From Croceicoccus mobilis (GTDB taxonomy: Bacteria > Pseudomonadota > Alphaproteobacteria > Sphingomonadales > Sphingomonadaceae), in assembly GCF_001661965.1 (NCBI RefSeq), contig NZ_LYWZ01000022.1, positions 558,001 through 622,000 of the forward strand: a stretch of DNA of 64,000 bases, read 5' to 3'. This document shows, in pieces, positions 16,041 to 54,319 of this stretch. Position 1 is the first letter of the stretch, and each line of letters opens with the position of its first letter. The notes under the pieces were generated by a model. It was not told where the DNA came from, did no database searches, and saw only the letters and a list, made by a program, of their open reading frames with translations. The position numbers and the translations under genes were made by a program.

Positions 16041-16613
16041 CTATCTGGGCCGCCGAAGGATCAGATAGAGCGCCCCGCGCCCGCCATGCCGGGGATGCGC
16101 GCCGCGCACCGCCGCGATGCGCGAGGCATGCGGCCCCGCCGCGATCCAGTCCAATAGCTTCGCCCGGATCGCGCCGCGCCTTTCGGCCCTGTCCGCCGCG
16201 TGCACCGGGCGCGGCTTGCCCGCCACCACCAGCAATACGCGCGCCCCCTGCGCGATGGCCTGCGACAGGCCCGCATCCAGCCGGCGATATGCCGCGTCAA
16301 GACCGTGGCCGTGCAGGTCCAGCGTGAAATCGGGTTCGACCGTGCCGCGCGTAAGCTTCTTGTCCCAGCCCCGATCCAGACCGCCGCCACTTTCCGCCAG
16401 TACCGGGGCGGGCGGCGGAGCGACGGGGCGCTGGACCCGTGGCTGCTTCATCCGGCGCGGCTGCTTTTGCGGGGGTGAAGGCGGCGGCGCGACGGGGGCC
16501 TTTGGGGTATCGGGCCGCTTGCGCCCAGCCATGGGCGTGACGGTAGAGGCTAGATGCGCCCAGGCGCGGCGCTCCTCCTCGCTCAGTTCACGCGGCCCCC
16601 TCCTCCGGCTCAT
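16041..16613 (-). CDS. Smr-domain protein
   Basis: A 190-residue protein with a Pro/Arg-rich, probably disordered N-terminal half and a C-terminal Smr (small MutS-related) domain. The domain opens with LDLHGHGLDAAYRRL and closes with GGRGALYLILRR. Stand-alone Smr domains are nucleases or nucleic-acid binding modules; here the LDLHG and the later G-rich HPRHGGRGA motif are intact. It is translationally coupled to mltA: its ATG overlaps the mltA stop by four bases. The mltA-smr order is common in Alphaproteobacteria. Confidence 0.88.
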   Translation of the reverse strand: MSRRRGPRELSEEERRAWAHLASTVTPMAGRKRPDTPKAPVAPPPSPPQKQPRRMKQPRVQRPVAPPPAPVLAESGGGLDRGWDKKLTRGTVEPDFTLDLHGHGLDAAYRRLDAGLSQAIAQGARVLLVVAGKPRPVHAADRAERRGAIRAKLLDWIAAGPHASRIAAVRGAHPRHGGRGALYLILRRPR

Positions 16614-17767
16614 GGCGCGGATTGCAGGCGCGCGGCGGCGGTCAGGGGCAATAGCAGGGTGATATGCGCATCGCTCGACATGCCGCCCGCGATGGCTTTC
16701 GCGGTTTCGCCTGCACCCCAGAACGTATCCAGCCGGTTCGCGCCCTTGATCGCGCCGCCGGTGTCCTGCGCGATCCAGATGCCATCGGCTTCGTCACGAT
16801 CGGCATTAATCAGCACCGGCGCACCCAGAGGCACGAATTTGGGATCGGCGGCGACGCTGGCATGGCCGCGCACCGGCACGCCCAATGCGCCCAGCGGGCC
16901 ATCACCGGTCAGCTCGCGGAAGAATACCCAGCTCTTGTTCGCGTCCATGACCTCCTTCGCCTCATCGGGATTGGCGCGCAGCCAGTCGACGATGCCCTGC
17001 ATGGTCGCCTCCCCCGGTGCGAAGACGCCGCGTTCGCGCAAGATCCGGCCGATGGCGACATATTCGCGCCCGTTCTGCCCGTCATAGCCGATGCGCGTGA
17101 CCGTGCCGTCGGGCGCGCGCAGCTGGCCCGAACCCTGTATCTGCAGGAAGAAGAAGTCGATCGGATCCTTGGCCCAGGCGATGACCGGGGCCTTCCCCTC
17201 GATCGCGCCCGCCTCGATCTCGGACCGTTCGTAATAATAGGTGAAGCCGCCATCCTCGGTCACGCGGCCCAGCGGGGCACGGCCCTCGCCATTGTAGTCG
17301 GGCTGGCGGACCAGATCGCCTGGCATGCCATAAACCGGCACGTCGAATCCCTCGGCCCTGACTTTCACGCCCGCGATCTGCGGTTCGAAATAGCCAGTGA
17401 GGAAGCCTTCGCCGCCCTCCACCAGAACAGGCGTGAAATAGCCGGAGAAGAAATCGCGCGCCTTGGCGGCAGGCCAGATCGCGGCGGCATCGCAGGCAAG
17501 CTTCCAGTCGGCGGCCTGCGTCAGGGCGCTTGCATCGGTGCGGGTCAGCAGTTTCGGGCAGCTCTCGACAAAGCTTGCCAGAGCGGCGGCGGCATCGGTG
17601 GGCGGCAGTGCGGCAGGGTTGAGCGCAGGCGCAATGGCAACCCCGGCTTCCAGCGCATTGGTCGGTTCAGGAGGTGGGGCAGGCTCCGGCGGCGGCGCGC
17701 AGGATGCAACGGCGACCCCGGTGGCCATGGCGACCAGCAGACGCGCGCGCAGATGGAGGAAGGGCAC
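16610..17767 (-). CDS. mltA: Membrane-bound lytic murein transglycosylase A
   Basis: Cleaves peptidoglycan glycan strands with 1,6-anhydro product formation. The 385 residues begin with a lipoprotein signal whose lipobox is VASC (Cys24), followed by a Pro-rich linker. The MltA domain has GYFEPQIAG and the large double-psi barrel insert. The C-terminal 3D domain shows DGIWIAQDTGGAIKGANRLD with its conserved aspartates. It sits between the Tim44-like gene and Smr in one minus-strand group. Confidence 0.94.
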   Translation of the reverse strand: MPFLHLRARLLVAMATGVAVASCAPPPEPAPPPEPTNALEAGVAIAPALNPAALPPTDAAAALASFVESCPKLLTRTDASALTQAADWKLACDAAAIWPAAKARDFFSGYFTPVLVEGGEGFLTGYFEPQIAGVKVRAEGFDVPVYGMPGDLVRQPDYNGEGRAPLGRVTEDGGFTYYYERSEIEAGAIEGKAPVIAWAKDPIDFFFLQIQGSGQLRAPDGTVTRIGYDGQNGREYVAIGRILRERGVFAPGEATMQGIVDWLRANPDEAKEVMDANKSWVFFRELTGDGPLGALGVPVRGHASVAADPKFVPLGAPVLINADRDEADGIWIAQDTGGAIKGANRLDTFWGAGETAKAIAGGMSSDAHITLLLPLTAAARLQSAP

Positions 17768-42352: not shown

Positions 42353-43375
42353 TCAGGCGTTTTCGGTCTGGCTTTCCGATTCCCGGATCGCCTGCAGCTT
42401 GGTCTCCCAACGCAGGGCATCGGTAATGATCTGCTCCAGATTGTCGAACTGCGGCTGCCATGGCGTAGTGGCGAGCAGCTTCGAATTATCGGCCAGCAGC
42501 GCCGAGACATCGCCCGCGCGGCGGCCTTCCATGCGGCGCGGGACCGGCTTTCCGACGACCTTGTCGACCGCGTCCAGCACTTCCAGCACCGAAAAACCCT
42601 TCGCATAGCCCACGTTCATGGTGAGATTGCGCGCAGGCTGAGCGATCAGGGCCTCCAGCGCATGGACATGGGCGGCGGCAAGATCGCTGACATGGATATA
42701 GTCGCGGATGCCGGTGCCGTCGCGGGTGGCATAATCCTGCCCGAACACGGCCACTTCGCTGCGTTTGCCCAAAGCCGCTTCCAGCGCGACCTTGATGAGA
42801 TGGGTCGAGCCCACGCCGGACTGGCCACTGCGCGCCTCGGGGTCCGCGCCCGCCACGTTGAAGTAACGCAGCACGCAATAGTTCATGTCATGCGCCTTGG
42901 CGGTGTCGGCCAGCACGCGCTCGGTCATGGCCTTTGACATGGCATAGGGATTGAACGGGGCCAGCGGTTCGTCTTCCGACAAGGGCTTCGCCTCCGCCTC
43001 GCCATAGACGCTGGCGGTGGAGCTGAAGATGAAGTGCGGGATACCCGATTCGACCGCCGCCTGGATCAGCGTGCGGCTCTTGCCCGTGTTATTGTCGTAA
43101 TACTTCAGCGGGTTTTCGACCGATTCGGGCACGATGATCGATCCGGCGAAATGCATGATGGCACCGATCTTTTGCTCTTCGAAGATCCGCTTGACCAGAT
43201 CGGTGTCGACGACATCGCCCTCATAGAACGGGACGCCATCGGGCACGGCCCAGCGAAAGCCGGTCGACAGATCGTCAAGCACCACCACCGGCCAGCCGCG
43301 ATCGACCAGCGCCAACACGGCGTGGCTCCCGATATATCCTGCGCCACCTGTCACCAGAACGGGGAACGGAGCCAT
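42353..43375 (-). CDS. galE: UDP-glucose 4-epimerase
   Basis: Interconverts UDP-glucose and UDP-galactose for envelope polysaccharides. The 340 residues have the NAD loop TGGAGYIGSHAV, the catalytic YAMSK tyrosine-lysine pair, and the later RDYIHVSDLA motif typical of GalE. It could supply UDP-galactose for the glycan cluster starting at 43729, and it is divergent from that cluster's glycosyltransferase across a 353 bp gap. Confidence 0.95.
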   Translation of the reverse strand: MAPFPVLVTGGAGYIGSHAVLALVDRGWPVVVLDDLSTGFRWAVPDGVPFYEGDVVDTDLVKRIFEEQKIGAIMHFAGSIIVPESVENPLKYYDNNTGKSRTLIQAAVESGIPHFIFSSTASVYGEAEAKPLSEDEPLAPFNPYAMSKAMTERVLADTAKAHDMNYCVLRYFNVAGADPEARSGQSGVGSTHLIKVALEAALGKRSEVAVFGQDYATRDGTGIRDYIHVSDLAAAHVHALEALIAQPARNLTMNVGYAKGFSVLEVLDAVDKVVGKPVPRRMEGRRAGDVSALLADNSKLLATTPWQPQFDNLEQIITDALRWETKLQAIRESESQTENA

Positions 43376-43728: not shown

Positions 43729-44598
43729 ATGCGCATCCACGTCGCCATTGCCACGACCGGCCGGCCCAAGATCATGAGCCAGGTGGTCGAGCGTTTCGAC
43801 CGCCAGACGCGCAAGCCCGATGGCATCATCGTGGTGGGCGCGGCTCCGGAAGACATCGTGGGTCTCGACAAGCTGCCCCATCCGCCGCTCGCCGTGATCA
43901 GCCATAAAAAGGGCCTGTGCTGCCAGCGCAATGTCGCGCTGTCGCATCTGCGCGACAAGGCCGACGTGGTGGTGTTCTTCGACGATGACTTCGTCGTTTC
44001 CGACGACATCATCGAAAAGATGGAAAAGATGTTCACCGCCGATCCGAAGCTGGTGGGCCTCACCGGCTGGCTGGTCGCCGATGGCGCGCAGACCGGCGGG
44101 CTGACTTTCGAAGAATCGGCCGCGATGCTGGATGCCCCCGATTTCCGCCCGGACAAGGCGGATGAGCCGACCAGCTGGCTGTATGGCTGCAACATGGCCT
44201 TCCGCATGAGCGCGTGCGAGGGGCTGACCTTCGACGAGAACCTGCCGCTTTATGGCTGGCAGGAAGATGTCGATTTTTCCGAACAGCTGGCGCGGCGCGG
44301 GTCGATGATTCGCACGGCACAGATGACCGGCGTGCACATGGGTACGCGCGGCGGGCGCACCTCGGGCTTTCGCCTCGGCTATTCGCAGGTCGCCAATATT
44401 GTCTATCTTCGCAAGAAGGGGACGATCGGGTCCTATCACGGCTGGGAACTGATGGCGCGCAATGTCGCGGCCAATCTCGCCCACTCGATCAAGCCGGAAC
44501 CCACGATCGACCGGCGCGGACGGCTTCGCGGCAATCTGCTGGCCTTTGCCGACATGATCCGCGGGCGGGCGCATCCCACCAAGATCCTGGATCTCTAG
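43729..44598 (+). CDS. Family 2 glycosyltransferase
   Basis: A 289-residue GT-A enzyme for glycan assembly. The nucleotide-sugar DXD equivalent is in VVVFFDDDFVVSDD, the acceptor region has GCNMAFR, and the catalytic base lies in LYGWQEDVDFS. It is soluble. It probably opens the surface-glycan locus, but a 318 bp gap separates it from the next gene, so a separate transcript is possible. Donor and acceptor cannot be deduced. Confidence 0.88.
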   Translation: MRIHVAIATTGRPKIMSQVVERFDRQTRKPDGIIVVGAAPEDIVGLDKLPHPPLAVISHKKGLCCQRNVALSHLRDKADVVVFFDDDFVVSDDIIEKMEKMFTADPKLVGLTGWLVADGAQTGGLTFEESAAMLDAPDFRPDKADEPTSWLYGCNMAFRMSACEGLTFDENLPLYGWQEDVDFSEQLARRGSMIRTAQMTGVHMGTRGGRTSGFRLGYSQVANIVYLRKKGTIGSYHGWELMARNVAANLAHSIKPEPTIDRRGRLRGNLLAFADMIRGRAHPTKILDL

Positions 44599-44916
44599 AC
44601 AGAATCCCGAAGCACCCTCACGGGCCGCTACCTTAGGGTTATCTACCTATTAACGCCTTGCGGGAATCCCCCCCAGAGCGTCCAATGCAGATGCGCGGCA
44701 GAGTGCGGGAATTGCCTGCTGCGCATGGGGTGACCAGGGGGATTTGGTAGCTCGTCAGCGTCTGACGCCGCGCACTTGTTCGTGTGGCGAAAGCATCGAC
44801 GCAAACAGGCGGCGCCCATCTCCACCTTGCACCGGGGGTAAGAATTGCGCCCAGGCCCATGTGGCGCCCGCAATTGCGAGCGAAAGTGGGCCACGGGCGA
44901 AAAGGGGGAATTGGAC
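44599..44916 (+). other. Structured leader/promoter region of glycan operon
   Basis: Noncoding gap with three hairpins: 44691-44701 with 44716-44726 (11 bp, one wobble), CGTCAG-CGT-CTGACG at 44753-44767, and AATTGCG/CGCAATT at 44843-44875. GGGGGAATTGGAC directly precedes the methyltransferase ATG. It may be a structured 5' leader that controls the operon. Confidence 0.4.
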
Positions 44917-46215
44917 ATGAATGTCGAATGGTCCGGCAAGAATGCGATCGAACTGACCGGCGGCGAGGAGGGCGACTTGGCCGCAAAGCCGTGCTGCCGC
45001 CATTGCGGCGAACCGCTCGACATCGTGCTGGCCGATCTTGGCTATTCGCCTGTCGCCAATGACCTGATCACGCCCGACATGGTGGGCCAGCCCGAAACGC
45101 TATACCCGCTGAAGGTCAGCGTTTGCGGCACCTGCTGGCTGGCGCAGGCCGCCGACGTGCTGCCCGCCGATGCGATCTTCCGCGCCGACTACACCTATTT
45201 CTCCTCGCACTCCTCGACGTGGCTCGCCCATGCGAAAGCCTATGTCGACCACATGATCGAACGTTTCGATCTGGATGCCGATAGCCGCGTGGTCGAGGTT
45301 GCGTGCAACGATGGCTATCTGCTTCAATATGTTAAGGAGGCGGGCATCCCCTGCCTTGGCGTCGAGCCGACCGCCGGTCCCGCGCAAAAGGCGCGCGATC
45401 TGGGCATCGAGGTCGTGGTCGAGTTCATGACCGAGAATTACGGGCAGGCTCTGGCCAAGAGCGGCTGGACGGCCGACCTCGTCACCGCGAACAATGTCCT
45501 CGCCCATGTGCCCGACATCAATGATTTCGTGCGCGGCATCGCGGCGATCCTGAACCCCGAAGGCGTCGCCACATTCGAGGTGCAGCATCTTTTGCGCCTG
45601 ATGCAAGGCCGCCAGTTCGACACGATCTATCACGAGCATTTCAGCTATCTCTCGCTGCTGGCAGCGGAAAAGCTGTTTGCCGCAGCGGGCCTGCGCGTTT
45701 TTGCGGTCGATAATCTGCCCACCCATGGCGGCTCGGTCCGCTTTTACGTCTGCCGCGCCGAATCGAGCCGAGCGGACGAGGCCTCCTTGGACGCGATGCG
45801 CGGCGAAGAAGCCGAATATGGCCTCGACAGGCGCGAAGTTTACGAGGCCTGGCGCGCCGATGTGCAGGAAACGAAGCTGGCGCTGATGGAAATGTGCCTC
45901 AAGCTGAAGCGCGAGGGGAAGACCATCGTCGGTTATGGCGCTCCGGCCAAGGGTGTGACTTTGCTGAATTATTGCGGGATCGGGGCCGATTTCCTCGATT
46001 ACACCGTCGACCGGGCGCCCTCGAAAAAGGGCTGCCTGCTGCCCGGCGTGCACGTCCCGATTCTGGACCCTTCCGAGATCCTCAACACCAAGCCCGATTA
46101 CGTGCTTATCCTGCCCTGGAATCTCAAGGACGAGATCATGGAGCAAATGAGTGCGGTGCGTGACTGGGGCGGCAAGTTCGTGACCCCGGTGCCGCTGGCG
46201 AAAATCGAGGATTGA
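44917..46215 (+). CDS. Sugar C-methyltransferase, three-domain (NovU/TylC3-like)
   Basis: A 432-residue SAM methyltransferase with the full sugar C-methyltransferase layout. An N-terminal zinc-binding domain has C27-x2-C30 and C70-x2-C73. The Rossmann domain has VVEVACNDGYLLQY, and the catalytic loop reads IYHEHFSYLS. A C-terminal domain contains GYGAPAKGVTLLNY. Such enzymes methylate C3 or C5 of nucleotide-linked 4-keto sugars. Its natural sugar substrate is presumably made by the neighbouring RfbF and SDR products (inference). It begins a plus-strand run to 51395. Confidence 0.9.
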   Translation: MNVEWSGKNAIELTGGEEGDLAAKPCCRHCGEPLDIVLADLGYSPVANDLITPDMVGQPETLYPLKVSVCGTCWLAQAADVLPADAIFRADYTYFSSHSSTWLAHAKAYVDHMIERFDLDADSRVVEVACNDGYLLQYVKEAGIPCLGVEPTAGPAQKARDLGIEVVVEFMTENYGQALAKSGWTADLVTANNVLAHVPDINDFVRGIAAILNPEGVATFEVQHLLRLMQGRQFDTIYHEHFSYLSLLAAEKLFAAAGLRVFAVDNLPTHGGSVRFYVCRAESSRADEASLDAMRGEEAEYGLDRREVYEAWRADVQETKLALMEMCLKLKREGKTIVGYGAPAKGVTLLNYCGIGADFLDYTVDRAPSKKGCLLPGVHVPILDPSEILNTKPDYVLILPWNLKDEIMEQMSAVRDWGGKFVTPVPLAKIED

Positions 46216-46223
46216 GGTAACGC

Positions 46224-47543
46224 GTGGGGGTCCAGCCGAATATCGCCATCATCGGGGCCGGTTTCGCCGGTTTCGGGGCGGCGCACGCGCTTTCGGGGGA
46301 AAGCGCCGATGTCACCATCTATGAAAAACGGCCCGTCCACGGCGGTCATACCTCGACCCATGCCTATGACGACGGTTTCCTGTTCGACGAAGGGCCGCAC
46401 ATCTCCTTCACCATGGATGAGCGGCTGCAGGAACTGTTCGCCGATTCGATCGGTGGCACATATGAAAAGCTGCGCGCCAGCGTCGACAATTATTGGAAGG
46501 GGCACTGGATCACCCATCCGGCCCAGACCAATCTCAATGGCCTGCCGACCGATCTGATCGTCGACTGCATCGACGATTTCGTCGCCGCTTCGCGTGAGCC
46601 GGTGGATGAAACGAAGATCACCGATTACGAACAATGGCTGCTGGCGGCTTTCGGTAAGACTTTCGCGAAAACCTTTCCCGGCCAGTACACGCGCAAATAT
46701 CACACGACCGAGGCGAAGAACCTGACGACGGACTGGCTCGGCCCGCGGCTCTATCGCCCTTCCCTGCGTGAGATGCTGACCGGCGCGCTGAACCCGATGC
46801 CGCCCAAGGTGCATTACGTCGATCATTTCCGCTATCCGACGCATGGCGGTTTCGTCAGCTATCTGAACGGTTTCCGCGCGCGGTCGAATGTCGCGATCAA
46901 TTCCGAGATTATCGGCATCGATCCCAAGGCAAAAACGCTGCGCATGTCTGATGGCCGCGTGGTCGGCTATGATGCGGTGATCTCTTCGGCGCCGCTGCCC
47001 AAGCTGATCCCGCTGATCGACGGCGCGCCCGACGACGTAAAGCTGGCGGCATCGAAGCTTGCCTGCACCGAAGTCGTGCTGGTCAATGTTGGCGTGACCA
47101 AGCCGCATGTCCGCGACGCGCACTGGACCTATTTCTACGACGACGAGATCGCGTTCACGCGCCTCTCCTACCCGTCGAATTTCTCACCCAATGTCGCGCC
47201 CAAGGGGTGCAGCGCATTGCAGGCAGAGGTCTATTTCAGCCCGAAATACAAGCCGAGGACGCAGGCGCCCGAGACCTATATCGAGCCGGTGATCGCGGGT
47301 CTTCTCGAATCCGGGCTGATCGACGGGCGCGACCAGGTGATCCACACCAGCACCATCGTCGCGCCCTTCGCGAACATCATCTTCGATCACGACCGCCCGG
47401 CAGCGGTTAAGTTGATTCACGAATATCTCGACGAGATCGGTGTGGGGTACTGCGGGCGCTTCGGCGACTGGGGTTACATCTGGACCGACCAGGCCTTCAC
47501 CAGTGGCGAGCATGCCGCGCGTAAAGCTCTGGATAGATTATAG
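46224..47543 (+). CDS. UDP-galactopyranose-mutase-like FAD protein
   Basis: A 439-residue flavoprotein of the amine-oxidase/UGM superfamily. The dinucleotide loop is IIGAGFAGFGAAHAL with the acidic end VTIYEKRPVHGGH. A sheet region resembling UGM substrate loops reads WITHPAQTNLNGLP. The C-terminal FAD signature is GYCGRFGDWGYIWTDQAFTSG. UGM converts UDP-galactopyranose to furanose; other relatives oxidise or desaturate. GTG at 46224 follows GAGGT and sits nine bases after the C-methyltransferase stop. Confidence 0.75.
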   Translation: MGVQPNIAIIGAGFAGFGAAHALSGESADVTIYEKRPVHGGHTSTHAYDDGFLFDEGPHISFTMDERLQELFADSIGGTYEKLRASVDNYWKGHWITHPAQTNLNGLPTDLIVDCIDDFVAASREPVDETKITDYEQWLLAAFGKTFAKTFPGQYTRKYHTTEAKNLTTDWLGPRLYRPSLREMLTGALNPMPPKVHYVDHFRYPTHGGFVSYLNGFRARSNVAINSEIIGIDPKAKTLRMSDGRVVGYDAVISSAPLPKLIPLIDGAPDDVKLAASKLACTEVVLVNVGVTKPHVRDAHWTYFYDDEIAFTRLSYPSNFSPNVAPKGCSALQAEVYFSPKYKPRTQAPETYIEPVIAGLLESGLIDGRDQVIHTSTIVAPFANIIFDHDRPAAVKLIHEYLDEIGVGYCGRFGDWGYIWTDQAFTSGEHAARKALDRL

Positions 47544-47591
47544 AATATCGCTTTTGGGTTGCACCACTCAGACATTCCGGGGGGAATTTGG

Positions 47592-48488
47592 ATGAGCGCA
47601 AAGAGGGAAAATCTGGTCTTTGTCCGTGCGGGGAAAAGCTCGCTGCACCGGCAGTGGTTCGATGCGGATGAATATCGCAACTGGGACCTGCAGATCAGCA
47701 CATGGGAAGACGATCCGTCGATCGCAGAGGGCAGCGACCTGCCACTCTCTGTCGACAAGGGTACGAAGTGGGACAGCATCTATCGCTATCTCGCCGCGAA
47801 CCCGCAGGTGATGGACGATTATCGCTATATCGCCTTCATGGATGACGACGTGCTTTTCGAAAAAGGCGCGCTGAACCGTTATTTCGACATCTGCAAGGAG
47901 GAGGGTCTGCGCGTCGCCCAGCCCTCGCTCCATCACGACAGCTATTTCTGCTATTCGATCCTGCTTCACTGCCCCCACACGAAGCTGCGCTATTCGAATT
48001 TCGTGGAATGCATGGCCGCCGCGATCCACACCGATTACCTGCGCAGCTTCATGCCGCGCATGGCAAAGGTGCAATCGGGCTGGGGCATGGACCGGATCTG
48101 GACGGTGACCATGCCCGATCCGTGCTATAAATCGGCGATCATCGATGAAATCGTGATGCTGCATACGCGCCCGCATGCCACCGGCGTGGTATACAAGGCC
48201 TTTGCCGATGGCGGCGTGACGCCCAAGACGGAAATGGATGCGCTGATCAATTCATACAGCGACATCCCGCGCAAGATGCTGATCTATGGCGCAAAGGGCG
48301 TGCATGGCGACAAGCTTAACGCGTCAAGCGCGCAGCTGGTCAATGGCCGCCATCTTCTCGCCAATGCGTGGCGCTATCGCGAACCGCGCCGTGCGGCCAA
48401 GACCGGCGCCGGCATGCTGCTTCGCGCCGTAACCGAAGCGCAATATCTGCCTGTCGCTGCCCATCGCCTCAAGACGGAGACACTGTAA
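47592..48488 (+). CDS. DUF707 protein, putative glycosyltransferase
   Basis: About 298 residues matching the DUF707 family. An acidic FMDDDVLFEKGALNRYF resembles a GT-A DXD, followed by RVAQPSLHHDSYF, RYSNFVECMA and SGWGMDRIW, each conserved in the family. The C-terminal 50 residues are basic. DUF707 members are thought to be glycosyltransferases, but activity is unproven. Start ATG at 47592 follows CCGGGGGGAATTTGG. The stop abuts the next gene's ATG. Confidence 0.8.
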   Translation: MSAKRENLVFVRAGKSSLHRQWFDADEYRNWDLQISTWEDDPSIAEGSDLPLSVDKGTKWDSIYRYLAANPQVMDDYRYIAFMDDDVLFEKGALNRYFDICKEEGLRVAQPSLHHDSYFCYSILLHCPHTKLRYSNFVECMAAAIHTDYLRSFMPRMAKVQSGWGMDRIWTVTMPDPCYKSAIIDEIVMLHTRPHATGVVYKAFADGGVTPKTEMDALINSYSDIPRKMLIYGAKGVHGDKLNASSAQLVNGRHLLANAWRYREPRRAAKTGAGMLLRAVTEAQYLPVAAHRLKTETL

Positions 48489-49475
48489 ATGCCCACCAAA
48501 CGCTCTGCCGATCGCCATTCGATGGCCGTGACCGTTGGTATCAACAACGGGATCGAGGCGGAGGAGAGGGCGATCTATGACGGGCAGATCACGCTGCTGC
48601 CGCCCACGCCTGCGGGACTGGCCCTGTGCGAACATGCCCGCCGCATGGTCGAGGAAGTGTTCGCACCCCACGATCCGCGCACCGCGCAGCACGAATTGTC
48701 GGTCGACGAATTCGTGGAGCGCGCCGCCATCGTGAAGCCGCGCTTCATCCACGACCCCGAAACGCGCCGCCTGCAAAAGCTCTATCTGGCGGAGCTGGGC
48801 TTCGATCCGGAACGCACCTATCTTGACGTGCCGCGCATGCGGGTGGTGTCGTCCGACGGCTATCTGACATCGGGCGTGGGGCACAAACAGCCGCCGCACC
48901 GCGATACCTGGTGGTCGGCGCCGATGCAGCAGATCCAGTTCTGGATGCCGGTCTTTCCGATGAGCCGGGAATGCTCGATGGAATTCTATCCGCATTACGT
49001 TGAGACGGGCGTCGACAATAGCTCGTCCGATTTCAACATCTACCGCTGGAACGCACATGGCCGCGCCAAGGCGGCGCAGCACAAGCAGGGCGAGGACAAG
49101 CGCGGCATTCCGCAGCCCCACGGCCCGCTCGACCATCCCGGTGCGGTGCAGGTGGTGCTGCCCGTCGGCGGGGCGGTGATCTTCTCTGCCAACCAGCTGC
49201 ATGCGACGTCGGACAATGTGACGGGGATGACCCGTTTCAGCATCGATTTCCGCATCGTGGATGCGCAGCATGTGAAGGAGGGCATTGGCGCCCTCAATGT
49301 CGACAACGAATCGACCGGCACCGCGCTACGCGATTTCCGCCGCATCAGCGATGGAGAGCAGCTCGATGCCGAAACGGTCGCACGATACGATACGGGCGAA
49401 AAGCCGGAGGACGGGGTTCTCGTCTTCACCTCCGACATCGCCGCCCGAGGGAATGATATGACGAAGGCCGAGTAA
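48489..49475 (+). CDS. Fe(II)/2-oxoglutarate-dependent oxygenase
   Basis: A 328-residue protein with the 2-His-1-carboxylate facial triad and 2-oxoglutarate arginine in canonical order: H137-R-D139 in PPHRDTWW, distal H238 in NQLHATSDN, and R249 in GMTRFSIDF, eleven residues later. The fold resembles phytanoyl-CoA-type dioxygenases. It should hydroxylate or otherwise oxidise a substrate made by the cluster. It starts in the base after the DUF707 stop codon. Confidence 0.85.
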   Translation: MPTKRSADRHSMAVTVGINNGIEAEERAIYDGQITLLPPTPAGLALCEHARRMVEEVFAPHDPRTAQHELSVDEFVERAAIVKPRFIHDPETRRLQKLYLAELGFDPERTYLDVPRMRVVSSDGYLTSGVGHKQPPHRDTWWSAPMQQIQFWMPVFPMSRECSMEFYPHYVETGVDNSSSDFNIYRWNAHGRAKAAQHKQGEDKRGIPQPHGPLDHPGAVQVVLPVGGAVIFSANQLHATSDNVTGMTRFSIDFRIVDAQHVKEGIGALNVDNESTGTALRDFRRISDGEQLDAETVARYDTGEKPEDGVLVFTSDIAARGNDMTKAE

Positions 49476-49515
49476 GGGGAAATCGGCCTTCATCGACCTG
49501 CAGAGGGGGCGGTTG

Positions 49516-50973
49516 ATGAAGTTCGTGGAAGCGCAGCATGCTGCGGCAGAACATTGGGACGTAGTCGTCGTCGGGTCCGGTTTCGGGGCGGTATTCTTCC
49601 TGCAAAAATACCTTGAACACAGGCCGGGTGACCGGGTGCTGGTGCTCGAACGCGGGCGTCATAATCGCCACGACTGGCAATTGGCATTTGAAGAGAATTC
49701 GGACATCGAGAAAACCGATGTCTATGCGCGCGCCGGCAATGACAAGGAATGGGATTTCACCATCGGGCTTGGCGGGTCGACCAATTGCTGGTGGGGCCTG
49801 ACGCCGCGGCTGCATCCGCGCGATTTCGATATCTTTACCCGCACCGGCGTCGGGGCCGACTGGCCGGTCCGCTATGACGATCTCGTGCCGTTCTACCAGC
49901 AGGCCGAACAGACCATGATGATCGCAGGGTCGGACGAGCTGGACGCGATCTACCCCGGCACGAAATATGTGCAGCCGGCCCATCACCTGACCACCGCCGA
50001 TGAGATGATCCGCGCCCGGCCCGGCCACCATCACTATCCGATGCCCACGGCCAAGCTTTCGCGCGCCGTCGGCAGCCGGGGGCGGTGCTGTTCCAATTCC
50101 ACCTGCAATCTCTGTCCGACCGAGGCGAAGTTCACCGCGCTCAACGGCATGCAGCCGGTGTTTTCGCATCCCGCCGTCTCGATCTGCCTGAAATCCACGG
50201 TGGAGATGCTGGACGTCGCCGATGGTGTGGTGAAATCGGTGAAGTTCAGCAATGCGGGCCGGGACTACACCGTGAAATGCGACCTGTGCGTGATGGGCGC
50301 CAATGCGATGCAGTCTCCCTTCATCATGCTGCGATCGGGGATCGGCGGGCACGGGCTTGGCCGCTATTTCGGAGAGAAGATGCTGGCCCGCATCGAGGTA
50401 AAGCTCGACGGGCTGGATCATTTCGATGGGGGCACCGCCGCCACCGCGCTCAACCTGTCGCTGCTGCAGGAAGAGCGGGACGCATCGCGCGGATCGGCGG
50501 TCTATATCTTCGACAACAGCCTTTATCCGGGATTGCGGCTCGATCCGCCGGGCCGATGGCGCCAGACCCTGCCGGTGGAGGTCTATGCCGAAGACCTGTT
50601 CGATTACGACAATGGCGTCTTTGACGAAGGCGGCGACAGGCCGGTCATCCGGTTCAAGCCATGGTCCGATTTTGCCATGCGCACGCTCGACCATGCGATG
50701 GAAGCCCTGCCCGGTATCGTCTCGGCCCTGCCCGTGGAAGAGGTGGGCAAGCCGGTCATCAAGCCGACCCTGGGCCATATGCAGGGCACGTGCCGCATGG
50801 GCACCAATATCGAAAACTCGGTGATCGACAGCGATCTCATCGCCCATTCGACGCGCAATCTGGTGGTGGTGGGAACGTCGATCTTCCCCACCGCCGGCAG
50901 CGCGAACCCTTCTCTCAGCGCCGCAGCATTGTCGCTGCGCGCGGCAGACCGGATGTGGAGGCAGGAGGCATGA
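49516..50973 (+). CDS. GMC-family dehydrogenase with Fe-S motif
   Basis: A 485-residue GMC flavoenzyme. The FAD loop is VVVGSGFGAVFF near residue 18, the family motif GGSTNCWWGLTPR follows, and the C terminus has HMQGTCRMGT and TAGSANPSLSAAAL with the catalytic His/Asn pair. C191, C192, C197 and C200 form a Cx4Cx2C-P pattern as in the [3Fe-4S]-bearing glucose and gluconate dehydrogenases. It lacks a signal peptide, and its stop overlaps the start of a Tat-signal small subunit, so hitch-hiker export is inferred. ATG 49516 follows GAGGGGG. Confidence 0.9.
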   Translation: MKFVEAQHAAAEHWDVVVVGSGFGAVFFLQKYLEHRPGDRVLVLERGRHNRHDWQLAFEENSDIEKTDVYARAGNDKEWDFTIGLGGSTNCWWGLTPRLHPRDFDIFTRTGVGADWPVRYDDLVPFYQQAEQTMMIAGSDELDAIYPGTKYVQPAHHLTTADEMIRARPGHHHYPMPTAKLSRAVGSRGRCCSNSTCNLCPTEAKFTALNGMQPVFSHPAVSICLKSTVEMLDVADGVVKSVKFSNAGRDYTVKCDLCVMGANAMQSPFIMLRSGIGGHGLGRYFGEKMLARIEVKLDGLDHFDGGTAATALNLSLLQEERDASRGSAVYIFDNSLYPGLRLDPPGRWRQTLPVEVYAEDLFDYDNGVFDEGGDRPVIRFKPWSDFAMRTLDHAMEALPGIVSALPVEEVGKPVIKPTLGHMQGTCRMGTNIENSVIDSDLIAHSTRNLVVVGTSIFPTAGSANPSLSAAALSLRAADRMWRQEA

Positions 50974-51395
50974 TCAATATCTCACGCAGAAGCGCATTGA
51001 TCGGCGGCGGCATGTCGGTGCTGGTCGCAGGCGGCGCCGGGGGACTGGCGATGAGCGGCAGCGCGGAACGGCTCTATGCCGCGCTGGTGCGTCACTATCT
51101 TGCCGAAGAACCGCTGGCGCCCGATGCCGCCAGCGCCTTTGGCCGCGAATATCACGCCAGCGGGCACGAAGCCTCGGCCAAGGTCGAGCCGCTTGTCTGG
51201 ATGAGCAGTGTCGCGGGCTTTCCCGCCATGGCCGCCGCGCTGGACGGGAAAGCCGCGTTCCATTCCTTTACCCGGCGCGTGGCGACGCGCTTCATGCTGT
51301 CATCCAGCATGTTCTCGCGCAGCTCATCCGACGAGCCGATCGAATTCTTCGGACTGTCCGAGGCATGCGGCAATCCGTGGGCCCGCTTCGATTGA
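50970..51395 (+). CDS. Tat-signal small subunit of GMC dehydrogenase (gamma-like)
   Basis: A 141-residue protein that overlaps the GMC gene by four bases (ATGA). Its N terminus carries a twin-arginine signal, SRRSALIGGG, followed by an Ala/Gly/Val-rich stretch. The remainder has no recognised domain. By analogy with FAD-glucose and gluconate dehydrogenases, whose small gamma subunit holds the Tat signal for the partner, it should chaperone the GMC subunit to the periplasm. GGAGG lies just before the ATG. Confidence 0.75.
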   Translation: MINISRRSALIGGGMSVLVAGGAGGLAMSGSAERLYAALVRHYLAEEPLAPDAASAFGREYHASGHEASAKVEPLVWMSSVAGFPAMAAALDGKAAFHSFTRRVATRFMLSSSMFSRSSSDEPIEFFGLSEACGNPWARFD

Positions 51396-51424
51396 GGGCA
51401 GGCCGCCGCGGATCGCCGCGTCAA

Positions 51425-52207
51425 TCAGGACGCATAGACAATGCGCCACGGGCAGTCATTGCTGGCCCACATTTCCTCCAGCACGCTCTTGTCGCGCAAA
51501 GTGTCCATGCACTGCCAGAAATCGTCGTGGCGGAAGGATGACAGCTGATTCAGCTCGACCAGCTTTTCCATCGGCCCGCGCTCCCAGATGGTCGAATCGC
51601 CCTCGATCAGGTCGATCACCTCGGGCTGACACACGTAAAAGCCGCCATTGATATGGCCGCCGTCATGCACACCCTTTTCGCGAAAGCCGGTGACGGTGTG
51701 GCCATCCTCGCTCATCCCCAGGGCGCCGAAACGGCCCGGCTGGCGCACGGCGGTGACGGTGGCCCATTTGCCCTGTTTTTGATGGAAGTCGAGCAGGCGG
51801 TCGATCGGCACATTCGAAAGCCCGTCGCCATAGGTCAGGCAGAACGGTTCGTTACCGATGGCATGACGCGCGCGCCGCACCCGCCCGCCGGTCATGGAAT
51901 CAGGGCCGGTATCGATCAGCGTGACCTTCCAGTCCTCATCCGGAGGAGCGTGAAAGGTGACGTCACCCGAACCCATGTCGATGGTGAAATCGCTTGCCAG
52001 GCTGCGATAATGCAGGAAATATTCCTTGATCACCTCACCCTTGTAACCGCAGCAGATCACGAAGTCCTTGAGCCCGTAATGAGCATAGTGACGCATGATA
52101 TGCCACAATATCGGCTTGCCGCCGACCTCGACCATCGGTTTTGGACGAATAGCCGTTTCCTCGCTGATGCGAGTACCGAAACCACCTGCCAGAATGACTA
52201 CTTTCAC
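51425..52207 (-). CDS. rfbF: Glucose-1-phosphate cytidylyltransferase
   Basis: Makes CDP-glucose, the entry step to CDP-linked deoxysugars. The 260 residues have the nucleotidyltransferase signature LAGGFGTRISEETAIRPKPM, the substrate motif DFVICCGYKGEVIKEYF and GNEPFCLTYGDGLSNV. It converges on the Tat small-subunit gene and diverges from an SDR gene. In known pathways the next enzyme is CDP-glucose 4,6-dehydratase, which is not evident here. Confidence 0.95.
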   Translation of the reverse strand: MKVVILAGGFGTRISEETAIRPKPMVEVGGKPILWHIMRHYAHYGLKDFVICCGYKGEVIKEYFLHYRSLASDFTIDMGSGDVTFHAPPDEDWKVTLIDTGPDSMTGGRVRRARHAIGNEPFCLTYGDGLSNVPIDRLLDFHQKQGKWATVTAVRQPGRFGALGMSEDGHTVTGFREKGVHDGGHINGGFYVCQPEVIDLIEGDSTIWERGPMEKLVELNQLSSFRHDDFWQCMDTLRDKSVLEEMWASNDCPWRIVYAS

Positions 52208-52329
52208 CGCTTACCCCCCAAGCGAAATAACCCGAATCCTCAGGCCCGATTTTCTTCGATGCAGGTTATCGTTTCAAGCGCCGCGCGCGGAGCATGCGGG
52301 GTAAAACGCCATCCTAGGGGGTAGATGAA

Positions 52330-53265
52330 TTGCAGCAAAAGGGCGTTGTCATGGTCACCGGCGCAAGCGGCTTTGTCGGCCGCGCCGTGCTGCGCGCCTT
52401 AAGGGCGCAGCACAGGCCGGTGGTGGCGATCGGCACGCCCTTTGACACCGGCGCTGATGACGGCATCGCATGGGACAAATTCGACCTGCTCGACCCCGCC
52501 GCCACGCGGCTTGCCATGGCGCGGCACCGGCCCGACATGCTGATCCACACCGCATGGGCCCGCACCCGGCCCGGCGGATTATGGAATGCCGAGGACAATC
52601 TGGCATGGACCGATGCAGGCATGGACCTGTTCGAAAGCTTCTGGGCCGAAGGCGGGCAGCAGATCGTCGCTTGCGGCAGCTGCGCCGAATATGGCCGCAG
52701 CGAAACGCCCTGCCGTGAAGATGTCACCCCGATCGCGCCCACGTCGATCTATGGCCGGGCCAAGGCCGAGCTTGCGACCCGCGCGCTGAAACGCGCCGAT
52801 GCACTGGGGATGCAGCTTGCTTGGGGGAGGCTCTTCTACCTCTATGGCCCGCACGAGGCCCGCTCCCGCCTTGTCGCCTCTGTCATCGACAGGTTGCTGG
52901 CGGGCAAGGCGGCGGAGACGACGCAGGGGCTGGTCGAGCGCGATTTTTCATTGAGCGACGATGTCGGCAACGGGCTGGTCGCGCTGGGCGATGCGGGTGC
53001 TGGCGGAGCGTTCAACATCGCCAGCGGCGAGGCCATCGCCCTGCGCGATCTGACGCGCAAGGTCGGCGCGCTGATGGATGCGGAAGACCGGCTGAAGATC
53101 GGCGCGCTGGAAGACCGCCCGAACGAGGCACCGCTGATCGCAGCCGACATGGCCAAGACCCATGCCGAGACCGGCTGGCAGGTAAAGACTCCGCTGGAAG
53201 AAGGGCTGGCACGCACCATTGCATGGCGACGCGCCCACCCCCTCTCCAACTCTGAAGCCCGTTAG
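52330..53265 (+). CDS. SDR nucleotide-sugar epimerase/reductase
   Basis: A 311-residue NAD(P)-dependent sugar-nucleotide enzyme with the Rossmann loop VTGASGFVG at residues 9-17 and the catalytic YGRAK tyrosine-lysine pair. The motif that in 4,6-dehydratases reads T-D-E is here GSCAEYG, so dehydratase activity is unlikely. A reductase or epimerase role is inferred. The start is TTG at 52330 because the first beta strand would otherwise be lost. It is divergent from rfbF. Confidence 0.82.
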   Translation: MQQKGVVMVTGASGFVGRAVLRALRAQHRPVVAIGTPFDTGADDGIAWDKFDLLDPAATRLAMARHRPDMLIHTAWARTRPGGLWNAEDNLAWTDAGMDLFESFWAEGGQQIVACGSCAEYGRSETPCREDVTPIAPTSIYGRAKAELATRALKRADALGMQLAWGRLFYLYGPHEARSRLVASVIDRLLAGKAAETTQGLVERDFSLSDDVGNGLVALGDAGAGGAFNIASGEAIALRDLTRKVGALMDAEDRLKIGALEDRPNEAPLIAADMAKTHAETGWQVKTPLEEGLARTIAWRRAHPLSNSEAR

Positions 53266-53278
53266 ACCGCCGGGCCTG

Positions 53279-54319
53279 TCAAACAGCAGGCAGCGTCCAG
53301 CTCAGTTCCGAATCGAGTAGCTCACGCTCCTTGTTCAAGAGCAGGCTCTTCAACCGGGTGAAGGGCACGGCCTCGAAATCTTCCTTCGACAGGTGGATCG
53401 CGTCGAACAATGTGCGCAGCTGGCGCGCGCCTTTTTCCGCGTCCCATTGGCACTGGAAGCCGGGCAGCACCTTGCCGATCTTGTCGAAACCGACCTTGTA
53501 GGAACGGTTGTCGCCATCCGACTGCCCCACGATCAGCTCACAACCGGGGAAGGTTTCCGAAACGATGCGCGCCACCTCGATGATGCGATAGTTCGAATCG
53601 GTATCGCCGACGTTGAAGATCTGGCCCCGGATCGCCTCCTCTGGTGCCTGCAGCGACATGCGGATGGCTTGCGCGATGTCGCGGATATGCACCAGCGGGC
53701 GCCACGGCGATCCGTCGCTGGTCAGCACGATCTTGCCCGATGTCTTCGCATGGCCGCACAGATTGTTGAGCACGATGTCGAAACGCATGCGCGGGCTGGC
53801 CCCGTATGCGGTCGCATTGCGCAGGAAGCAGGGCGCGAAATCATCCCCCGCCATCGCGCCAATGTCTTCCTCCACCTTCACCTTGCACTCGGCATAGGCG
53901 GTCTGCGGATTGGGCGGCGTGGTCTCGTCCACGTACTCGTTCTCACCATCCGCCGCGCCATAGACGGAGCAGGACGAGGTATAGACGAAACGCCTGATCC
54001 CGGCCTCGCGCGCGGCCTTGGCAAGGCTGACCGATCCGGCGTGATTGATCTTGTAGGTGATGAACGGATCGTGCTGCCCCAGCGGATCGTTCGACAGTTC
54101 AGCCAGATGCACCACCGCATCGAACCCGGCGAGATCATGCGCCGTCAGCTCGCGAATATCCTTACGAAAGGACATGGGCACCGGATCGGACGACGGGTAA
54201 AGCCAGCCCGCGCTATAGTAACGATTATCGATACCCACGACTTCGAAGCCATGGGCGATCAGGTCTGGCCCGACGATTGCCCCGATGTAACCGTCCGACC
54301 CTGTAAGCAGTACGCGCAT
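53279..54319 (-). CDS. SDR nucleotide-sugar epimerase/dehydratase-like protein
   Basis: A 346-residue SDR with the NAD loop GSDGYIGAIV, the catalytic YAECK, and the RPLVHIRDIAQAI motif typical of nucleotide-sugar epimerases. Where 4,6-dehydratases have S-T-D-E this chain has SSCSVYG, so an epimerase or keto-reductase role is more likely. Related proteins accompany C-methyltransferases and RfbF in other glycan clusters (general knowledge). It starts after GGGGGGAATGAA and converges on the previous SDR. Confidence 0.82.
   Translation of the reverse strand: MRVLLTGSDGYIGAIVGPDLIAHGFEVVGIDNRYYSAGWLYPSSDPVPMSFRKDIRELTAHDLAGFDAVVHLAELSNDPLGQHDPFITYKINHAGSVSLAKAAREAGIRRFVYTSSCSVYGAADGENEYVDETTPPNPQTAYAECKVKVEEDIGAMAGDDFAPCFLRNATAYGASPRMRFDIVLNNLCGHAKTSGKIVLTSDGSPWRPLVHIRDIAQAIRMSLQAPEEAIRGQIFNVGDTDSNYRIIEVARIVSETFPGCELIVGQSDGDNRSYKVGFDKIGKVLPGFQCQWDAEKGARQLRTLFDAIHLSKEDFEAVPFTRLKSLLLNKERELLDSELSWTLPAV

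Follow-up and report, generated by a model that had tools for sequence, protein, structure and literature searches.

Positions 43729-54319 of a 64,000-nt stretch of the Croceicoccus mobilis genome carry a block of sugar-nucleotide and glycan-modifying genes that we tentatively read as the precursor-and-tailoring module of a Wzx/Wzy exopolysaccharide. Gene content and setting make this plausible, and we would put its chance a little below even. The whole stretch (NZ_LYWZ01000022.1; G000:C15:558001-622000, G000 being the C. mobilis genome itself) is referred to as the window, and all coordinates given without a genome or locus label are positions in it. The block encodes, in order, a GT2-type glycosyltransferase, a sugar C-methyltransferase (CMT), a flavoprotein resembling UDP-galactopyranose mutase (UGM), a DUF707 putative glycosyltransferase, a 2-oxoglutarate (2OG) oxygenase, a GMC dehydrogenase with a small twin-arginine (Tat) subunit, RfbF, and two short-chain dehydrogenases/reductases, SDR1 and SDR2. 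RfbF would supply cytidine diphosphate (CDP)-glucose, and SDR2, probably a C4-dehydrogenase of the Cj1427 type, would take the place of the CDP-glucose 4,6-dehydratase, RfbG.

A sequence-only reading of the window had named these gene families and proposed that they form one locus for a surface glycan. Every open reading frame (ORF) of the block is open where that reading had listed it, and the families were assigned by Pfam and NCBIfam scans with family-specific bit-score cut-offs and by motif and fold evidence. The gene order was compared with that of three relatives from two other genera of the same family (G184, G142 and G332). One order, running from CMT through the UGM-like, DUF707, 2OG and GMC genes to the small subunit, with a divergent RfbF gene and SDR1, was kept in all three, inside an exopolysaccharide locus, and CMT, UGM-like and DUF707 were co-directional neighbours in four of four genomes. 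The recurrence of this order in three further species is more than chance would give, and the proposal of one surface-glycan locus is supported. The view that nine genes form a single block holds for this core but not for SDR2 and GT2, whose homologues in G184, G142 and G332 lie within the same larger locus without adjoining the core. Within the order, the GMC protein was matched at E<=1e-30 in 4/296 genomes, three of them with the module; the fourth, G192, has a protein of 38-39% identity without it. The 2OG protein was matched at E<=1e-20 in six of 396 genomes of the order, with >70% identity in four of the six, the C. mobilis genome included. A scan of genome contigs with the GMC alignment, in which records close to the C. 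mobilis genome may be left out, revealed no further full module among the best 80 loci listed.

In the relatives, polysaccharide export genes share the larger locus with the core. The GT2 homologue, 41-43% identical, lies ~3.6 kb from CMT; between the two are an L-2-hydroxyglutarate-oxidase (LhgO)-like flavoprotein, a GH16 and a GT4 gene (family scan for G142 only). Beyond GT2 follow an SDR2 homologue (41-43%), a Wzx-like flippase, a Wzy homologue, a chain-length kinase, a Bac_transf sugar transferase and a Poly_export protein; these families were assigned by Pfam for stretches of the G142 and G184 loci and by eye in G332. The Wzy protein of G142 has no Pfam match, and its G000 homologue matches Wzy_C at 32.2 bits (cut-off 31.7). 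The sequence-only reading had expected export to be encoded elsewhere, and this was borne out, both by the relatives' locus and by contig C16 of the C. mobilis genome, where the Wzy homologue (40%) is accompanied by Wzx, Poly_export, a chain-length kinase and a pair of CMT-type genes (38% and 24%). No RfbF or SDR2 was found within the 40 kb examined around this C16 export locus. As the Wzx, Wzy and export genes sit on C16, away from the block, C. mobilis may encode a pathway of this kind at two separate sites. The genome also has a second polysaccharide locus (L113:11975-18820 and L114:3602-9939; G000:C15, ~654-672 kb). Judged by eye, it encodes a flippase and a chain-length kinase as well as a cytidylyltransferase and a synthase of nonulosonic-acid type, and one of its ORFs, a long one, matches a pyruvyl transferase.

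RfbF (51425..52207, minus strand) was assigned as glucose-1-phosphate cytidylyltransferase (TIGR02623, 384 bits; cut-off 300). A search for RfbG with TIGR02622 found no protein over the cut-off in G000, G184 or G142 (0/3; G332 was left out); applied to a sample of 105 genomes, the same search gave matches over the cut-off in 35. To survey the context of SDR2-type genes, 37 loci were opened, 15 from a phylum genome sample and 22 plasmid loci hand-picked for diversity from 87 records. The plasmid loci L234 and L235 were chosen via other genes (UGM-like and 2OG, respectively), L235 and L174 are both from Sinorhizobium, and L236, chosen via 2OG, has no SDR2 and was left out of the count. An RfbF or RfbF-like gene was present in 31/37 of these loci (10/15 genome and 21/22 plasmid) and a CMT-type gene in 6/15 genome and 15/22 plasmid loci; RfbG was the best match in none of the 37. 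The RfbF-like genes are 27-60% identical to the window RfbF, and several are annotated only as sugar nucleotidyltransferase, so that some of them may not make CDP-glucose. As a control, 20 of 36 RfbG matches were opened. These loci contained RfbF in 18/20 and CMT in 5/20 cases, and none of the 20 contained an SDR2-type gene >100 bits (one scored 72), a UGM-like gene or an LhgO gene.

SDR2 (53279..54319, minus strand) is an epimerase-type SDR below all NCBIfam cut-offs listed, with galE as its best match. The T[ST]DK dehydratase motif was present in 22/22 RfbG sequences and in 0/43 SDR2-type sequences, and SDR2 was rejected as an RfbG on this ground. The motif SPxxRxDxxxN is carried by 40 of 43 SDR2-type proteins and, in the alignment, by 6vo6; the 22 RfbG sequences, SDR1 and galE lack it. 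Searched against the PDB, the SDR2 profile matched 6vo6 at 143 bits, with the next best at 86; 6vo6 and 6vo8 are structures of Cj1427. This suggests that SDR2 is probably a C4-dehydrogenase of that type. Cj1427 is reported to keep its NADH tightly bound and to be recharged with alpha-ketoglutarate, from which L-2-hydroxyglutarate is formed (PMC10680097), and its activity requires alpha-ketoglutarate (PMC7949155). In three Deinococcus plasmid loci a single gene, lhgO, separates rfbF from the SDR2 gene (a fourth plasmid shows overlap), and LhgO-like genes lie near the SDR2 gene in Gemmobacter and in G622. Such neighbours fit an SDR2 driven by alpha-ketoglutarate.

Alternatively, SDR2 could be a plain C4-epimerase, or else a CDP-glucose 4,6-dehydratase that has diverged, so that the block would run the known 6-deoxy C-methyl sugar route with diverged enzymes. 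That route is represented by rfbF-rfbG-CMT loci in Methylocystis, S. meliloti and five of the 20 control loci, the galE match would suit an epimerase, and the solved relatives of CMT act on deoxysugars. However, the dehydratase motif is missing from all 43 SDR2-type sequences, SDR2-type genes and RfbG never occur together in the 37 loci, and a retaining epimerase releases no keto sugar that CMT could use. We consider this route unlikely here. Two other arrangements of SDR2-type genes were observed. In a Leisingera plasmid (L132:8001-10343) the SDR2-type match makes up the first part of a far longer coding region, annotated as a single epimerase/dehydratase, which also contains a CMT-type match and is followed by two methyltransferase genes. 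In eight loci (L133, L134, L163, L164, L174, L240, L242 and L244) a recurrent set comprises SDR2, DUF4910, RfbC on the opposite strand, CMT and an RfbF-like gene (37-40%), with PIG-L in the five annotated records; it looks like another pathway to a CDP- or other nucleoside diphosphate (NDP)-sugar and was matched to no described one.

CMT (44917..46215, plus strand) matches PF08421 (Methyltransf_13), PF13489 (Methyltransf_23) and PF08484 (Methyltransf_14) and has all three domains of sugar 3-C-methyltransferases, a Zn-binding N domain, an S-adenosylmethionine (SAM) domain and a C-terminal domain. Cysteines 27, 30, 70 and 73 of the Zn-binding domain are invariant in five sequences. The best PDB match was D-mycarose 3-C-methyltransferase (E 3.5e-108), and TcaB9 was also matched, suggesting that CMT likely methylates C3 of a 4-keto NDP-sugar. 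CMT shares the three domains and a nearly full-length profile match with the TcaB9/KijD1-type enzymes (4rv9, 3ndi, 5t64). TcaB9 and KijD1 make antibiotic deoxysugars, whereas CMT lies among polysaccharide genes and probably acts on a non-deoxy sugar. SDR1 (52330..53265, plus strand), likewise an epimerase-type SDR below all NCBIfam cut-offs listed, is likely an NDP-4-keto-sugar reductase; the best PDB match of its profile was the GDP-6-deoxy-lyxo-4-hexulose reductase 2pk3 (E 5e-26), with other SDRs close behind.

The UGM-like flavoprotein (46224..47543, plus strand) has general FAD/NAD-binding Pfam matches, and its best NCBIfam match (147 bits) is below the 389 cut-off. At E<=1e-6 its profile matched 15 PDB sequences, every one a UDP-galactopyranose mutase (best E 6e-40). 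H59, R175 and R313 align with mutase residues, the counterparts H63, R182 and R327 being catalytic in fungal UGM. Homologues in other families lie with RfbF and SDR2-type genes (L161, 48%; L234, 56%), and remoter ones (L293 and L294, 32-33%) with RfbF and RfbG; a search of 385 sampled genomes of the class recovered the C. mobilis genome only and was uninformative. We read the protein as a likely CDP-pyranose/furanose mutase. A FAD (FADH2)-dependent enzyme of this activity is proven in C. jejuni HS:41 (PMC12369002). The DUF707 protein (47592..48488, plus strand; 39 bits, cut-off 24.1) carries a DDD motif. DUF707 genes occur together with RfbF, near UGM-like genes, in L234 and L294, and near RfbF-SDR2-CMT in S. 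meliloti 1021 (L237), which makes DUF707 a candidate transferase for the sugar. The GT2-type protein (43729..44598, plus strand) matches PF00535 at 24.3 bits, barely above the 23.3 cut-off.

The block might instead serve two or more independent functions, with a CDP-sugar set (RfbF, SDR2, CMT) and separate cargo (UGM-like, DUF707, 2OG, GMC, small subunit) making and modifying another sugar, such as galactofuranose derived from UDP-galactose that the adjacent galE would supply. Two further genomes bear on this point. A comparable locus in G354 and G162 comprises LhgO-like, GH16, GT2, RfbF, SDR2 (42%), CMT (41-43%) and a second CMT-type gene, and Wzx/Wzy-type genes by eye; no UGM-like, DUF707, 2OG or GMC gene was found in the examined stretches. 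The block is thus made of at least two separable parts, and RfbF-SDR2-CMT can stand alone. The single pathway proposed by the sequence-only reading, which had suggested comparing synteny, is supported in part by the core found together in G184, G142 and G332, but part of the minus-strand group varies apart from the plus-strand group. Two functions would also suit the solved homologues of the UGM-like protein and the galE-like SDR gene (42353..43375, minus strand) that adjoins GT2. Against them, the UGM-like homologues of L161, L234, L293 and L294 all lie with RfbF (two without and two with RfbG), CMT, UGM-like and DUF707 keep together in every module genome, and no galE-like gene was seen beside the module in the three relatives. 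We consider separate functions unlikely. The galE-like gene, rejected as a module member on the last of these grounds, is probably outside the module; on the other side, biotin-type genes, recognised by eye, adjoin the block from 54494 onward.

Two enzymes could tailor the sugar by oxidation. The product of 48489..49475 (plus strand) has no Pfam match; H137, D139, H238 and R249 (HxD...H...R) are invariant in six aligned sequences, and a model with a pLDDT of only 62 gave 135 Foldseek matches at E<=0.001, PtlH first (E 2.9e-7) and EvdO1 among the rest. The facial triad and the predicted double-stranded beta-helix support its assignment as an Fe(II)/2OG oxygenase. Relatives of 29% identity in G123 and G376 (L128:10538-11422 and L129:9464-10351) have, by eye, an aldo-keto reductase and large TonB-type receptors as neighbours and lie outside any polysaccharide locus, a setting unlike that of the block. 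The GMC dehydrogenase (49513..50973, plus strand) matches GMC_oxred_C (E 5.5e-16), with the N-terminal GMC domain below cut-off. Its cysteines C192, C193, C198 and C201 (CCx4Cx2C) align with the Fe-S cluster cysteines of 6a2u and fructose dehydrogenase, and among solved structures it comes nearest to the catalytic subunits of FAD-glucose and fructose dehydrogenases. The small twin-arginine subunit (50970..51395, plus strand), which likely carries the GMC subunit to the periplasm, matches no Pfam or NCBIfam family; its profile had only chance-level matches in the PDB, and its sole fold match was 8jej_B at E 3.9. Among 35 GMC homologue loci, the CCx4C...C motif was found in 30 and a short twin-arginine ORF downstream, by our own reading of the translations, in 26. 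The pair recurs across these loci and is therefore a general unit. The 2OG oxygenase and the GMC dehydrogenase probably work in separate compartments, and synteny suggests that they may act on the same sugar.

Further GMC genes were seen. G184 (L010:822-2735) and G142 (L012:8504-9952) have second copies at ~45%, away from the module and followed in G184 by a twin-arginine small ORF, and the G622 locus with LhgO-like, SDR2, RfbF and UGM-like genes encodes two GMC_oxred_C proteins (L161:10612-12042 and 16225-17682). With the FAD-glucose and fructose dehydrogenase complexes (6a2u, 7w2j) the pair shares a GMC subunit with the CC...C...C pattern and, to judge by its twin-arginine start and position, probably a Tat small subunit; unlike them, it lies in a polysaccharide locus, and no cytochrome c (CxxCH) protein was seen among 70 predicted genes of four loci around it. 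That the pair is a periplasmic sugar dehydrogenase feeding the respiratory chain, unrelated to polysaccharide, would agree with these solved relatives and with the second copies, but is quite improbable given that all four genomes have the pair between 2OG and RfbF, the missing CxxCH gene and the two other GMC-type genes of L161.

Several observations weigh against our reading of the block and of SDR2. RfbF is lacking from 5/15 genome SDR2-type loci, and a sixth has only a weak match (27%, 78 bits). Searched alone, the window SDR2 ties between 6vo6 (79.8 bits) and 6wjb (80.0 bits) for its best PDB match. It is 43% identical to the relatives' SDR2 and 57% to that of Deinococcus, and because of this closer likeness the gene may have been exchanged. 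An LhgO-type gene was found in only 5/37 SDR2-type loci (1/15 genome, 4/22 plasmid), and the Deinococcus LhgO genes and the other LhgO-like genes form two distant branches. Across the order, LhgO-like genes occurred in 56/396 genomes, four above the family cut-off, with at most four candidates per genome scored. Of 60 matches, 20 were opened, and none had RfbF or SDR2 in its flanks (~9 kb as a rule); at least three of these loci end early at contig ends, and two, in G354 and G162, carry RfbF-SDR2-CMT ~13 kb off in the same locus. LhgO-like genes were accordingly not taken to mark the module in the order at large. Nor is the LhgO-like gene on C19 of the C. mobilis genome, which does not group with those of the relatives' loci, claimed to encode the recycling enzyme. 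A Pantoea UGM-like relative (30%), one of three remote loci, lies without RfbF. The absence of the UGM-to-GMC genes from the G354 and G162 stretches and of a cytochrome c gene from the GMC loci belongs here too.

From these assignments we infer the following pathway. After CDP-glucose formation by RfbF, SDR2 would oxidise C4 in place of the 4,6-dehydratase, leaving the 6-hydroxyl, probably by a ping-pong mechanism in which the hydride passes to alpha-ketoglutarate and L-2-hydroxyglutarate leaves. CMT would methylate C3 of the 4-keto sugar and SDR1 would reduce C4. The UGM-like flavoprotein would convert pyranose to furanose after SDR1, because furanose formation needs the C4 hydroxyl. The predicted product is a non-deoxy branched CDP-3-C-methyl-hexofuranose, which DUF707 and/or GT2 would transfer to a lipid-linked repeat unit. 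The 2OG oxygenase may hydroxylate the sugar in the cytoplasm, and once the unit has been flipped, the GMC dehydrogenase, carried across the membrane by its Tat small subunit, may oxidise an exposed hydroxyl in the periplasm.

The C. jejuni HS:41 pathway to CDP-D-fucofuranose and CDP-6-deoxy-L-altrofuranose (PMC12369002) shares with this predicted scheme the CDP-glucose start, a C4-reductase and a FAD-dependent CDP-pyranose/furanose mutase as the last step. That pathway depends on a 4,6-dehydratase and makes one of its products with a 3,5-epimerase. Neither enzyme was seen in the block, which adds a C-methyltransferase, a 2OG oxygenase and a GMC dehydrogenase. The GDP-heptose pathway of C. jejuni HS:2 with Cj1427 (PMC10680097) likewise combines C4 oxidation without dehydration, modification and C4 reduction, but starts from GDP-manno-heptose rather than, as predicted here, CDP-glucose, and has 3,5-epimerisation in place of C-methylation. 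The rfbF-rfbG-CMT loci of a Methylocystis plasmid and S. meliloti pSymB share RfbF and a CMT of the same family and have RfbG where the block has SDR2. A proposal for virenose in another bacterium (PMC3539893) derives a methylated deoxy-sugar from GDP-mannose or TDP-glucose. Among the papers listed by searches of open-licence PubMed Central we found none joining CDP-4-keto with C4-dehydrogenase or glucose-1-phosphate cytidylyltransferase with L-2-hydroxyglutarate, and nothing matching the locus for L-2-hydroxyglutarate oxidase, C4-dehydrogenase or GMC oxidoreductase in such a pathway. Each part belongs to a known family, and none of the pathways that these searches turned up combines SDR2 in the role of RfbG with a CDP-furanose mutase, C-methylation and periplasmic oxidation.

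RfbF and an alpha-ketoglutarate-driven C4-dehydrogenase in place of the 4,6-dehydratase could form a widespread route, not described in the papers searched, to CDP-linked branched sugars that retain the 6-hydroxyl. It would be joined here to C-methylation, CDP-specific contraction to a furanose by the UGM-like enzyme, an exopolysaccharide and periplasmic oxidation by a Tat-exported Fe-S GMC enzyme, with the by-product L-2-hydroxyglutarate recycled by an oxidase of the same operon in some lineages. This broader proposal is possible, if doubtful. If true, it would give a function to an SDR family mostly annotated just as 'SDR family oxidoreductase' and would explain rfbF genes without rfbG. Non-deoxy, C-methyl branched and sometimes furanose sugars would then be predicted in the surface polysaccharides of Alphaproteobacteria, Streptomyces and Gordonia, where such loci were seen, and the polysaccharide would be tailored after export by a GMC dehydrogenase.

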